Positions 1,406 to 31,651 of a DNA stretch of 42,444 bases are shown piece after piece. The stretch is from Parcubacteria group bacterium M6-OD1-4 (GTDB lineage Bacteria; Patescibacteriota; Patescibacteriia; Patescibacteriales; UBA12465). Positions within the stretch are counted from its first letter, which is position 1, and the number at the start of each line of letters is the position of its first letter. A program made the position numbers and the translations under genes. The notes under the pieces are model-generated. The model did no database searches. It worked only from the letters and a program-made list of their open reading frames with translations, and had not been told where the DNA came from. The DNA lies in NCBI GenBank assembly GCA_003056205.1, contig LSNS01000018.1:1-42444 (forward strand). The letters are read 5' to 3'.

Positions 1406-1966
1406 ATGAAGTTAGTAATAATATTTGGTCCACAGGCAGTGGGCAAGATGACAGTAGGGTATGAGTTAGAAAAAATAACAAAATTAAAACTATTTCATAA
1501 CCACATGACTATTGAATTAGTTAATCCTTTTTTTAATTACAGTACAAAAACTGGAAAGAAGTTGGTTAATCTATTTAGAGAAGAAATTTTTAAAGAAGTC
1601 GCAAAAAGTGATATGAGTGGCTTAATATTTACATTTATCTGGGCGTTTAACGAAAAAGATGATTGGGATTATATAGATAAAATAAGTAACATTTTTGAGT
1701 CTAAAGGCGGGGATGTCTGTTTTGTTGAGCTTGAGGCAGATATAAATGAAAGGATTAAACGCAATTCGACTCCTTATAGGCTGGAGCATAAACCAACTAA
1801 AAGGAATATTGACAAATCAAATATTGACCTAAAGAAATCTATGGAAAAATATCGAATGAATTCAGAGGCAGGTGAAATAAAAAAGGAAAATTATATTCGT
1901 ATTAATAATAAAAATTTAGAGCCTGCGGAGGTGGCTAATATAATAAAACTAGAATTTGGTTTATAA
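1406..1966 (+). CDS. P-loop NTPase / AAA-type small kinase-like protein
   Basis: N-terminal Walker A-like IIFGPQAVGKMTVGYEL; single-domain length. Confidence 0.6.
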   Translation: MKLVIIFGPQAVGKMTVGYELEKITKLKLFHNHMTIELVNPFFNYSTKTGKKLVNLFREEIFKEVAKSDMSGLIFTFIWAFNEKDDWDYIDKISNIFESKGGDVCFVELEADINERIKRNSTPYRLEHKPTKRNIDKSNIDLKKSMEKYRMNSEAGEIKKENYIRINNKNLEPAEVANIIKLEFGL

Positions 1967-2011
1967 AACAATTTTAGTCCTAACATCGTTCACGACCTCG
2001 AGTAAATTCAA

Positions 2012-11613: not shown

Positions 11614-11635
11614 TTGAACAGTTATGCAAATGAAC
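11610..11635. promoter_or_regulatory. Putative ArsR-family operator
   Basis: Inverted repeat TCATTTG-N10-CAAATGA (11610-11616/11627-11633) overlapping the -10 and start codon; contains two TGAAC half-sites. Confidence 0.55.
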
Positions 11636-11941
11636 AAAAAAAATAAAATTAAAAAAGAATTAAAAAACCATCAAGCTTTAGTGCAATGTGCTCAAGAATT
11701 CAATATGATTGGTGATCCGACGCGCTTGAAAGTTTGTTATATTCTTTGCCATCATCAAGAACTAACAGTTGGCGAAATAGCTGATTTAGTGGGGGTTTCT
11801 ATATCTGCTGTTTCTCATACTTTGCAAAAATTAAAGGAAGGACGGGTGGTTAAAGACCGTCGGGATTTTCGTCATGTCTATTATCAATTTCGACGTTCGC
11901 CTTTAGTAACGATGATTAAAAAACGACTTAATAATTTATAA
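11624..11941 (+). CDS. ArsR/SmtB-family transcriptional regulator
   Basis: FNMIGDPTRLKVCYILCHHQELTVGEIADLVGVSISAVSHTLQKLKEGRVVKDRRDFRHVYYQ winged-helix pattern. Confidence 0.9.
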   Translation: MQMNKKNKIKKELKNHQALVQCAQEFNMIGDPTRLKVCYILCHHQELTVGEIADLVGVSISAVSHTLQKLKEGRVVKDRRDFRHVYYQFRRSPLVTMIKKRLNNL

Positions 11942-11953
11942 TGTATATTAGCG

Positions 11954-13357
11954 ATGAAAAAATTTGATTTAATTATTATTGGTGGTGGTGCCGGAGCTTT
12001 CGCCGCTGCCGTGCGAGCCAATGAATTAAAAAAACAGACGCTTATCATTAATACTGGTCTGCCTCTTGGAGGGACTTGTGTTAATGTCGGCTGTGTCCCC
12101 TCTAAAAGATTGCTGTGGGCAAGCGAATTATTACATCAGACTCAGCATCATGGTTTCTCGGGTATTGAATTAGCAATCAAGAAGTTTGATTTTTCTAAAG
12201 TAATTCAAGAGGAGTTAGCGCTAGTTAGCCAGATGCGTCAAGAAAAATATGTTCAAGTTTTAAGTAATTTAGAATATGTTCAGGCAATTTCTGGCCGAGC
12301 AAAATTTATTTCTCCAGTGGCCGTAGAAGTCGATGGTAAAAAAATAATGGCGAAAAAAATTATTATTGCGGTAGGCTCCACGGCTCGAGTTCCAGAGATT
12401 CTTGGTTTGCAAAAGGTGGGTTTTCTCACTCATATTGAAGCTTTAAAACTTAAAAAACAACCCCGGAGTCTAATAATTATCGGAGCGGGGCCACTCGGTC
12501 TAGAATTTGCTCAAATGTATGCTCGTTTTGGTACGACGGTTACTATCTTACAGCGTAGTTCCAGGATTCTGCCTCGAGCCGAGAAGGAGCTGACAAAACG
12601 TTTAACGGAAATTTTAATTGCCGAAAAGATTACTATCAAAACTCGGGTAGAGATAAAGAGCGTTAGTCAGCGCGGAGCACAAAAAATTATTAGTTTAAAA
12701 GTTAATGGTCGAGCAGAAAAAATTCAAGCTGAGGAAATTCTATTGGCGAGTGGTAAAATCCCTAATACCACAAATTTAGGATTGGAAAAAATTGGTGTTC
12801 AGATTGATCAACGACAAGCAGTGATTGTTAATAAGAATTTTCAAACGGCAACTAAAAATATTTTTGCAGTTGGCGATGTCATCAGTGCTCCATTACGTTT
12901 AGAAACAACTGCTGGCCGTGAAGGCACATTGGCTACTGATAATGCTTTAACTGGCAGTAGCTTATCTTTAGATTATCAAACCGTACCTTATACTGTTTTT
13001 ACCGACCCGCAATTAGCTGGAGTAGGTTTAACTGAAGAAGAACAGATTAAAGAATTAGGACTTTGTGCTTGTCGGACAGTTCAGTTTACCAGTGTTCCGA
13101 AAGCAATTATTATGGGTCAAACTACCGGACTAATAAAAATGCTTATTCATCCGGAAACTCAACAGATTATGGGGGTTCATATTTTGGGTCCACAGGCGGG
13201 GGAATTAATTGCTCAGGCGATGATTTTAATTAAAAATAAAAACACGATTGAAGAAGTAGTTAATTCACTACCAATGTTTCCCACTCTAGCTGAAGCCTTA
13301 AAAATTGTTGCTTTGTCATTTACAAAAGATATCTCTAAATTAAGTTGTTGTATTTAA
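11954..13357 (+). CDS. merA: Mercuric reductase (no N-terminal HMA domain)
   Basis: GGTCVNVGCVPSK redox motif, FAD/NAD motifs, and C-terminal FTKDISKLSCCI with the vicinal Cys pair typical of MerA. Confidence 0.9.
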   Translation: MKKFDLIIIGGGAGAFAAAVRANELKKQTLIINTGLPLGGTCVNVGCVPSKRLLWASELLHQTQHHGFSGIELAIKKFDFSKVIQEELALVSQMRQEKYVQVLSNLEYVQAISGRAKFISPVAVEVDGKKIMAKKIIIAVGSTARVPEILGLQKVGFLTHIEALKLKKQPRSLIIIGAGPLGLEFAQMYARFGTTVTILQRSSRILPRAEKELTKRLTEILIAEKITIKTRVEIKSVSQRGAQKIISLKVNGRAEKIQAEEILLASGKIPNTTNLGLEKIGVQIDQRQAVIVNKNFQTATKNIFAVGDVISAPLRLETTAGREGTLATDNALTGSSLSLDYQTVPYTVFTDPQLAGVGLTEEEQIKELGLCACRTVQFTSVPKAIIMGQTTGLIKMLIHPETQQIMGVHILGPQAGELIAQAMILIKNKNTIEEVVNSLPMFPTLAEALKIVALSFTKDISKLSCCI

Positions 13358-13368
13358 ACTCTAAAATT

Positions 13369-13737
13369 ATGACTACTAAAAAACCAATTAAAATTGGGCT
13401 ATTAGCGGGGTTTATTGCTTCTTTATGTTGTCTTGGACCATTAATTCTGATTGTTCTCGGAATTGGCGGGGTTAGTACTGCCTTGGCAATTGGACAAAAA
13501 AGTCCTTATTTTTTAGCTCTGGGAATTTTAATTTTAGGGGGTGGTTTAGGATTTTATTATTGGCGCCAACATCAAGAAGCTTGTCAAAAATGTGAGGTTG
13601 TACGATTTAATTGGCAAAAAATGTTAGCGCTTATTATTCTAGCTTGTGCTATTTTTTTCATTGTTTACTATCTTTTATTATATGTGGTCGTTCCTTGGTT
13701 AGCACCACTGGTCTATAAAAATTTTTATTCTTATTAA
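13369..13737 (+). CDS. merT: MerT-like mercuric transport membrane protein
   Basis: First TM segment LLAGFIASLCCLGPLILIVLGIGG with the Cys-Cys pair of MerT/MerF-type transporters; later CQKC pair. ATG 13369 avoids overlap with merA. Confidence 0.75.
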   Translation: MTTKKPIKIGLLAGFIASLCCLGPLILIVLGIGGVSTALAIGQKSPYFLALGILILGGGLGFYYWRQHQEACQKCEVVRFNWQKMLALIILACAIFFIVYYLLLYVVVPWLAPLVYKNFYSY

Positions 13738-13759
13738 TCCATTCTCATTTTTAAATTTT

Positions 13760-14128
13760 ATGAAGAAAAATATTATTATTACCATTATTGTTATTGTTAG
13801 CGCTGGTTTGATTGGTTTAGTTGTTAGACAAGCGCGACTAACAGCCTCGCGGTCAGCTCTCAAAGCGGCTACTAGCCATTCTGAAATTCAGTCCACTGCC
13901 AATCTTCGACAAGCAACTATGAAAATCTCCGGAATGTTTTGTACTAGTTGTGCAACGGGGATTGAGTATTCCTTAAAAGGGAAACCGGGAGTTGTCTCAG
14001 CGACTGTTGATTATAATAGTAAAATTGGTCAAGTAGTTTACAATCCAGCCCAGATTTCTAAAGTAGAAATTATTCAGGCCGTTAAGCCTTATATAGCAGT
14101 AATTACCAATGATCAGTCCTTTAAATAA
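13760..14128 (+). CDS. Membrane-anchored MerP-like heavy-metal-associated (HMA) protein
   Basis: N-terminal TM segment, then MKISGMFCTSCATGIEYSLKGKPGVVSATVDYNSKIGQVVYNPAQ (HMA CxxC). Confidence 0.85.
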   Translation: MKKNIIITIIVIVSAGLIGLVVRQARLTASRSALKAATSHSEIQSTANLRQATMKISGMFCTSCATGIEYSLKGKPGVVSATVDYNSKIGQVVYNPAQISKVEIIQAVKPYIAVITNDQSFK

Positions 14129-15362: not shown

Positions 15363-16163
15363 ATGAATTTAAAAATTCTTCATTTAAATATCGAACGTAA
15401 TCGACACTTGAAATCAGTTATTAAACTTCTTTAAGATGAAAAACCTGACCTAGTCTGTTTTGAAGAGGCTTTAAGTATGGATGTTACAAAAATAGCCTTA
15501 GAGTTAGATTATCATCTCGCTTTTGCTCCACTGTTGATTTTAAAAGAGGAATCAGAACAAGAAGGAGAGGGTTCGGCAATTCTTTCGCGTTTTCCAATAA
15601 TAAAAATTAAGAAATATAAATATAGTGATCATCCTTCAGCAGATATTTTAGTTCGCACTCCAGAGCAAGTTGCTTCTCATCAGGGGAAAAGAGCAAGCGA
15701 TCGTTTTTTATATAATTATACCTTATTAGCTATTACTATTAAGAATCAGCACGGGAAACCAATTACTATCGCCACCACTTATTTCCCGGTTGTTGATCAT
15801 AATAGCCCTGGCTTAGCAGATCATGAATTAAAGAGTTTAGAAGATGTTCAAGAATTAGAACATATTGATTTTACTCTAGAACATTTTCTTTCTAAATTGA
15901 GATTATTAAAAGCTCCAATAATTTTCACAGCTGATTTAAATAATGCTCGTGGTGAATATGTTTATGATACGATTGCTAATGAATTAGTTGATATTGTCCC
16001 GCAGTCAGTACTGTCCACGATTGACCCTAAATTACATCGTCATCGCGGATTAAAGTTAGTTGTGGACACGATTATGATTAGCCCGAACATCTCTGTTAAA
16101 AGTTTCACTATGATCCAGGGAGTTAGCGATCACCAAGCTTTAATTGCTTCTCTTAAGATTTAA
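15363..16163 (+). pseudogene. Endonuclease/exonuclease/phosphatase-family protein interrupted by an in-frame TAA
   Basis: MNLKILHLNIERNRHLKSVIKLL*DEKPDLVCFEEALSMDVT... is collinear with the EEP fold; TAA at 15432-15434; the rest of the ORF (15477..16163) contains TADLNNARGEYVYD and SDHQALIA. Confidence 0.8.
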
Positions 16164-29928: not shown

Positions 29929-30720
29929 ATGTTTAAAAAAATCTTATTTATTTCTGCAGTTCTAATTGTTGGTTTAAGCGTCTCCGCTTGTTCCTCTCCT
30001 CATAGTCGTTCTGTTCAACAAACTGAAAATCATTCTTTAAATACGTCGTCTCTCAACAAAACTAATTCTTTTACTAAATCAACAGCAATTAAGAAAAATG
30101 CTGTGCCGGTTCAAAAGTCTGTTTCTCATTCTGAGCAACCACTTAGTTCCAAGACTAATCCGGTTAAAAATAATACTAGTATGCCCACACCCGCTCAACA
30201 AGTTAATCTTCTTCAAAAGTATTCTCAAGCAATTTTAAAAACTAATTTCGGTGATATTACTTTGAAATTTTATCCGCAGGGAGCTCCCCTGGCAGTGAAT
30301 AATTTTTTAAATTTAGCTCAAGCCGGTTTTTATAACGGTACCAAGTTTCATCGAGTCATTAAAGGTTTTATGATTCAAGGTGGTGATCCCCTTACTAAAG
30401 GATCCGATGTTGCTTTATATGGCACTGGTGGGCCAGGTTATCAATTTAAAAATGAAGACAGTGGTCATCAGTTAGTAGCAGGAAGTTTGGCAATGGCTAA
30501 TTCTGGACCGAATACTAATGGTTCACAATTTTTTATTGTTACCGCTACCGCTACTCCTTGGTTAGATGGTTCTTATACTAATTTTGGTCAAGTTAGTTCA
30601 GGAATGGAGGTTGTGCGAAAAATAGAAGATGTTCCAGTTAAAGCCAATCCCGGAAATCCCGCTGAAGTTTCTTTTCCAATTCAAGATATTATTATTAATA
30701 GCATTGAATTATTAAAGTAA
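29929..30720 (+). CDS. Cyclophilin-type peptidyl-prolyl isomerase, lipoprotein
   Basis: Lipobox LSVSAC; FHRVIKGFMIQGGDP, GSLAMANSGPNTNGSQFFIV. Confidence 0.93.
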   Translation: MFKKILFISAVLIVGLSVSACSSPHSRSVQQTENHSLNTSSLNKTNSFTKSTAIKKNAVPVQKSVSHSEQPLSSKTNPVKNNTSMPTPAQQVNLLQKYSQAILKTNFGDITLKFYPQGAPLAVNNFLNLAQAGFYNGTKFHRVIKGFMIQGGDPLTKGSDVALYGTGGPGYQFKNEDSGHQLVAGSLAMANSGPNTNGSQFFIVTATATPWLDGSYTNFGQVSSGMEVVRKIEDVPVKANPGNPAEVSFPIQDIIINSIELLK

Positions 30721-30724
30721 TTAT

Positions 30725-31306
30725 ATGAAATTAAATAATTTTTTTAAGTTAATAATCTCTCTCTTAGTTTCTGGATTGTCTGGTTTTATTGCTTGGTTCT
30801 TTATTGGTCCAGGATTTTCTAATTGGCATTTAGTTTGGTTAAAATTTGTCCTTGATCCTAGCAATTTAGTTTTTGTAATAGTCTGGATTCTGTTGTATAT
30901 TCTATTAGGTATTGCCGCTTTTCTAATTTGGAAACGTCGTGAACAAACTCAAAAAGTTCGGGCTGCTCTGTTAATTTTCCTTTTCCAATTAATTGCCAAT
31001 TCTTTTTGGTTAATAATATTTTTTGGTACTCATAATTTCTCTTTAGCTTTCTTGGAAGTTGTCAGTTTATGGTGTGCGGCTTTAGCGACAATTTTAATTT
31101 TTTATGAGATTTTTCCTCGGGCGGCTTATTTGTTAATACCTTATATAATTTGGATTACTTTTAGTGCTTATGCTAATTATACCGTTTGGCAGAACCCCAG
31201 TTTAAGTCAGAGAACTGTTCAGATTTCTTCAACAAAATCAGTAGTTGTGAGACCGACCCTGGCTAATCCAGCTTCTGTAAATTGTCTTAAAGAGGGGGGG
31301 CTTTAG
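30725..31306 (+). CDS. TspO/MBR-family (tryptophan-rich sensory) membrane protein, ends at a frameshift
   Basis: TspO-like layout: VFVIVWILLYILLGIAAFLIWKR.., FQLIANSFWLIIFFGTHNFSLAFLEVVSLW, PYIIWITFSAYANYTVW; then ANPASVNCLKEGGL*. Confidence 0.75.
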   Translation: MKLNNFFKLIISLLVSGLSGFIAWFFIGPGFSNWHLVWLKFVLDPSNLVFVIVWILLYILLGIAAFLIWKRREQTQKVRAALLIFLFQLIANSFWLIIFFGTHNFSLAFLEVVSLWCAALATILIFYEIFPRAAYLLIPYIIWITFSAYANYTVWQNPSLSQRTVQISSTKSVVVRPTLANPASVNCLKEGGL

Positions 31307-31575
31307 TAAATAAAAAAGATGGAGTTGGTGGAGAATATAGTTTATGTGATTTTGGCAGTGGTCAAGCTTGTGAAGAATGGGCTTTATTCCGAGGAAACTG
31401 TCCACAAGGTGGGATAAAAACTACTGGTTTTGATACTGAAGCTCAAAAATATTGTGCTTGGCTTGGTGGGCAAACTTTAGCTGTTCCTCAAGCTCTTTGT
31501 ACTTTTAAAGATGGCTCCAAATGCTCGGTAATTAATCTTTATCACGAAAAATGTACTCCTGGAGAAAATAAATAA
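31300..31575 (+). CDS. -1 frame continuation: two Cys-rich DUF333-like repeats
   Basis: ALVNKKDGVGGEYSLCDFGSGQACEEWALFRGNCPQGGIKTTGFDTEAQKYCAWLGGQTLAVPQALCTFKDGSKCSVINLYHEKCTPGENK*; the upstream frame supplies ANPASVNCLKEGG at the G7 tract. Confidence 0.7.
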   Translation, partial: ALVNKKDGVGGEYSLCDFGSGQACEEWALFRGNCPQGGIKTTGFDTEAQKYCAWLGGQTLAVPQALCTFKDGSKCSVINLYHEKCTPGENK

Positions 31576-31599
31576 TTAAAATTATATTTTTTATAAATA

Positions 31600-31629
31600 A
31601 AAACACCTCTTAAAAATAGAGGTGTTTTT
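31600..31629. terminator. Bidirectional intrinsic terminator
   Basis: AAAACACCTCT/AGAGGTGTTTT between convergent units. Confidence 0.85.
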
Positions 31630-31651
31630 AGAATAGATTTTGAATAATTAT

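Follow-up and report, generated by a model that had tools for sequence, protein, structure and literature searches.

A TspO gene fused to a DUF333 pair and broken at a G7 tract in a small bacterial genome

The gene described here joins a TspO membrane protein to a pair of cysteine-rich DUF333 repeats, with the reading frame broken inside the first repeat, and the TspO-DUF333 fusion is real and lineage-specific. We consider it probable that this was one gene, in which TspO served as an anchor displaying the DUF333 pair, and that a G8 tract, shortened by one base to G7, accounts for the break. The architecture is mildly novel, and the frameshift itself is ordinary. The window, which is the whole stretch of 42,444 nucleotides that was analyzed, corresponds to contig C5 (33% GC) of a 785-kb assembly of 20 contigs rated 96% complete. 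The relatives recovered by search are Patescibacteria/Parcubacteria-type MAGs, and the host looks like a small uncultivated bacterium resembling a Patescibacterium.

A divergent TspO and its locus

The TspO open reading frame is positioned at 30725..31306 on the forward strand, from an ATG at 30725 to a TAG at 31304-31306, just past the start of a DUF333 domain. It encodes a TspO/MBR protein of 193 amino acids with five predicted transmembrane (TM) helices, as judged from hydropathy and charge distribution, and residues 14-155 match the TspO_MBR profile PF03073 over positions 3-144 of 145 (E=6.7e-32; 110.7 bits versus a cut-off of 24). The five hydrophobic helices are shared with the TspO/MBR family (PDB 4uc1, 4ryi and mouse TSPO, 2mgy), and the core residues common to both include W34, W54, N92, W95, P139, Y140, W143 and N151; residue 147 is a serine here, where mouse TSPO has A147 at the aligned position. 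In contrast to the family, the protein carries a C-terminal DUF333 tail, and both the KP/PP loop motif and the GPVW-type stretch are largely replaced. An alignment with 75 TspO ORFs located this loss in loop 1 and the start of TM2 (30806..30886, forward strand), which read NWHLVWLKFVLDPSNLVFVIVW versus the usual xWYxxxxKPxxNPPxWVFxPVW. W34, K40, P45, F50, V53 and W54 of the motif (WY..KP..NPP.W.F.PVW) are retained, and Y35, P41, N44, P46, W48 and P52 have been replaced. This motif is linked to ligand binding. Across the 54 strongly conserved columns, defined as at least 85% conserved among the 75 TspO ORFs, 34 are kept and 20 differ, which is the second lowest value of 76; the majority of the compared ORFs keep more than 90% of these columns, and the losses here are concentrated in loop 1/TM2. 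Still fewer conserved positions (28/54) were observed in another TspO, the ORF at 1492-1977 (reverse strand) of L042, which has no tail. Since the overall profile match stands, we file the protein as a divergent TspO, and on these replacements its presumed ligand function is in doubt.

Lysine and arginine residues are concentrated at the N terminus and in the second loop of the five-segment protein, from which the positive-inside rule predicts a topology with the N terminus inside and the C terminus outside. Published orientations of bacterial TspO disagree (PMC8243069).

The TspO locus is placed between a cyclophilin gene and the convergent rplA-rplK-nusG genes. The upstream gene (29929..30720, forward strand) encodes a cyclophilin-type peptidyl-prolyl isomerase with a lipoprotein-like N terminus (PF00160, E=1.1e-46), and its stop is separated from the TspO start by 4 bases, so the two genes probably form one transcript. 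Between the tail and the convergent rplA, a repeat search found a perfect 13-bp inverted repeat with T/A flanks (31598..31630, strandless), which is probably a bidirectional terminator; this repeat is absent from the output of a terminator pattern scan. Syntenic TspO genes were found in two congeners (G004 and G009), where they also face rplA convergently, separated from it by a gene for an RNA-binding protein, and carry unrelated acidic C-terminal tails instead of the DUF333 pair. A chimeric contig is disfavored, in that TspO and the DUF333 start share one frame ahead of the G tract and the locus resembles the TspO loci of these congeners. Neither a second copy of the TspO-DUF333 locus in the genome nor a strain copy in viral contigs was found. 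Elsewhere in the window, positions 11618-14128 hold a compact mercury-type operon, notable in so small a genome, with an ArsR/SmtB regulator, a MerA mercuric reductase (TIGR02053, 513 bits versus a cut-off of 454), and MerT-like and membrane-anchored MerP/HMA-like proteins. A second disrupted gene, of the endonuclease/exonuclease/phosphatase family (15363-16163), is broken by an in-frame TAA at 15432-15434, 23 codons past its likely ATG, and here the cause is a point change, not an indel.

A conserved DUF333 pair in the −1 frame

The first DUF333 domain has its N-terminal part, NPASVNCLKEGG, in the TspO frame at 31259..31300 (forward strand), as residues 179-192, the last 14. This part matches positions 2-15 of the PF03891 profile (2-22 in another run) with E=0.005, which is below the cut-off because the domain is cut by the stop. 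The remainder of this domain and a second DUF333-like repeat follow in the −1 frame (31300..31575, forward strand), which ends with a TAA at 31573-31575. The coding part (31300-31572) matches DUF333 in two stretches (E=4.6e-12), the best of which resumes at profile position 18, and the join between the two frames is exact at the G tract. Even with the first third of the domain set in the other frame, the tail alone passes the PF03891 cut-off (46.5 bits versus 25). A sequence-only reading had described a TspO ORF that runs into a DUF333 start and ends at the TAG at 31304, with the −1 frame continuing the first repeat and adding a second; coordinates and Pfam matches agree with it on both points.

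The tail is a 94-codon open frame in DNA of 33% GC, for which the probability of being open by chance is about 5e-4. Intact tandem-DUF333 proteins from related genomes share 54-62% identity with it; this homology excludes chance, and the tail is real. It retains 36 of 42 strongly conserved columns, within the range of intact homologues, as well as all eight cysteines (8/8) of the two-repeat form when aligned with 16 homologues, and its conservation exceeds that of the TspO part. The second repeat is weakly recognizable from its sequence. In an AlphaFold2 model of a homologous DUF333 pair, with a low model confidence (pLDDT 66), its predicted secondary-structure order matches that of the first repeat, and a PDB fold search with this low-confidence model returned nothing (best E 1.0). 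A scan of the tail's −1 frame for ATG, GTG and TTG found no start codon, and independent initiation of the tail was rejected on this ground.

The tail has the same two-repeat layout, with all eight cysteines, as the tandem DUF333 (PF03891) proteins of Patescibacteria-type genomes. The carrier is different: in the relatives, the element in front of the DUF333 pair is one TM helix or a lipoprotein-like signal, not TspO; in the gene described here, the frame is broken. Going by these signals in homologues, the DUF333 tail is as a rule exported and tethered to the membrane. Some of the relatives' proteins additionally contain MliC, a lysozyme-inhibitor domain (E=2.7e-11), or show weak similarity to FG-GAP-like parts, and the company of MliC suggests envelope protection as a putative role of DUF333.

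The G7 tract and the cause of the frame break

The frame breaks at a G7 tract (31294..31300, forward strand), identified in the sequence and in a genome-wide search for G/C tracts. The codons at the break are AAA GAG GGG GGG CTT TAG, so that the tract lies in the G_GGG_GGG (X XXY YYZ) register, as the sequence-only reading had noted when it proposed a slippery site for −1 ribosomal frameshifting. The geometry of that proposal holds; the mechanism is not supported. According to it, programmed −1 frameshifting, or transcriptional slippage, would yield a minor fusion product beside TspO, and both the exact register and a conserved tail without its own start codon are in its favor. A heptamer followed by a zero-frame stop is also the arrangement of dnaX and the IS3-type transposases, whose X_XXY_YYZ sites support −1 programmed frameshifting. 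However, the heptamer here is made of G only and lies outside any mobile element, no upstream Shine-Dalgarno-type stimulator was seen by eye, and downstream structure was not above that of shuffles (z = −0.20 and +0.70). No conserved site was found in relatives, among the matches listed, and this genome also has an intact dnaE in which an identically phased G GGG GGG heptamer (GTG GGG GGG CAG) is followed by 187 further open codons. In addition, the part of the E. coli heptamer study drawn on here (PMC4066793) ranks G_GG.G_GG.U, the closest assayed sequence, which differs from G7 at the last base, lowest of 64 heptamers, near background at 0.018% without a stimulator. Weighing structure, conservation, the dnaE heptamer and the published efficiencies, we reject programmed frameshifting as highly improbable. 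The absence of the tail from the TspO relatives that were found likewise speaks against a conserved programmed site; the fusion nevertheless stands, because this genome contains it and its conserved residues are in place.

An indel in the homopolymer, whether by mutation, phase variation or sequencing error, had been named as the other possibility and is the better account. The G7 tract is one of nine G/C tracts of at least 7 in the genome, and all of the other genic G/C7-8 tracts (7/7) sit in open genes, including GAG GGG GGG GCA in dnaK; systematic homopolymer undercalling in the assembly is thus unsupported. No match to MutS (PF00488) or MutL (PF01119) was found in this genome rated 96% complete, and both were matched in 11 of 14 control genomes. 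Slippage at a G8 tract would then escape repair, so that a genuine mutation or a mixed population gains in probability relative to a simple base-call error. The authors of GeneTack usually attribute homology-supported singleton frameshifts to sequencing errors or indels (PMC3711429).

If the tract flips between G7 and G8 in the population, the external cysteine-rich tail would be toggled while TspO is always made. In length this tract ranks with the longest G runs that the genome contains, the module around it is probably surface-exposed, neither frame is otherwise interrupted, the tail is conserved, and the lack of a MutS/MutL match would also fit. Phase variation is nonetheless unlikely, since phase-variable tracts tend to be longer than G7-8, equal-length tracts occur in dnaE, dnaK and mreB, genes for which switching is improbable, and the gene is represented by no relative and by one assembly with a single allele. 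We regard as more doubtful still a broader version, in which a ligand-loop-less TspO has been recruited as a polytopic anchor and its cysteine-rich module is switched population-wide via G7/G8 in a cell devoid of mismatch repair. Alternatively, the truncated TspO may itself be the functional protein, with the DUF333 tail as a dead remnant: the TspO relatives mostly lack a tail, many conserved TspO positions have been lost here, and another gene of the window has an in-frame stop. Such decay is very unlikely, as it would leave unexplained why the supposed remnant is better conserved than the TspO part and why 193 and 94 codons are still open in AT-rich DNA.

The reading we prefer is therefore a fused gene broken by a one-base contraction. 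The intact gene would encode a five-helix membrane anchor with its N terminus inside and C terminus outside, which would hold the disulphide-rich tail on the external face of the membrane, as single-helix anchors and lipoprotein signals do in related genomes. A G8 tract within the first repeat has then probably contracted by one base to G7, and translation of the gene as assembled halts at 31304 and produces TspO plus a stub. The contraction could be a real slippage mutation or strain variant, arising without detectable mismatch repair, or a consensus error. Two observations count against this account: the other G7-8 tracts are correctly assembled, which would make an error at this one exceptional, and the tail shows no decay, which also fits a frame that is still somehow expressed. 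The case calls for caution, in that an in-register G7 resembles a recoding site, yet all available controls favor a plain indel.

TspO as a carrier of cysteine-rich modules

The fusion architecture had been called unusual, and comparison supports this view. No other TspO-DUF333 junction was found among the matches listed in three overlapping genome samples, drawn at the level of order (111), class (381) and phylum (380), and none of the 83 TspO ORFs compared, among the matches listed, has a full DUF333 pair. The closest co-location among these matches is in L109 (G303:C1 34410-36841), where the DUF333-pair and TspO genes are separate and 1.6 kb apart. A literature search found no paper treating both DUF333 and TspO.

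C-terminal extensions of other kinds are more frequent. At least 25 extra C-terminal residues were present in 14 of the 82 other TspO ORFs, and 11 of these 14 carry a CTxEAxxCPDGSxVGRxGPxC-type module (L093, L096, L073, L003, L006, L113, L116, L124, L088, L107 and L123), often trailed by a further domain. Pfam scans of two such modules, one alone (L107) and one with a further domain (L113), gave no match. As in the gene described here, TspO is followed in these proteins (e.g., L093, L096, L107 and L113) by an external-looking cysteine-rich module; that module is not DUF333, however, and the TspO loop motif is intact there. A CPDGS-type module adjoins DUF333 in L110.

The degenerate ligand loop, the conserved tail and the predicted external C terminus together suggest that TspO is probably used here as an anchor that displays the tail outside the cell. 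Discussions of TspO usually treat it as a self-contained protein of five helices that binds ligands. With tails on about a sixth of the compared Patescibacteria-type TspO ORFs, mostly small, external-looking cysteine-rich modules, ultrasmall bacteria may also use TspO as a platform in the membrane that carries surface modules.
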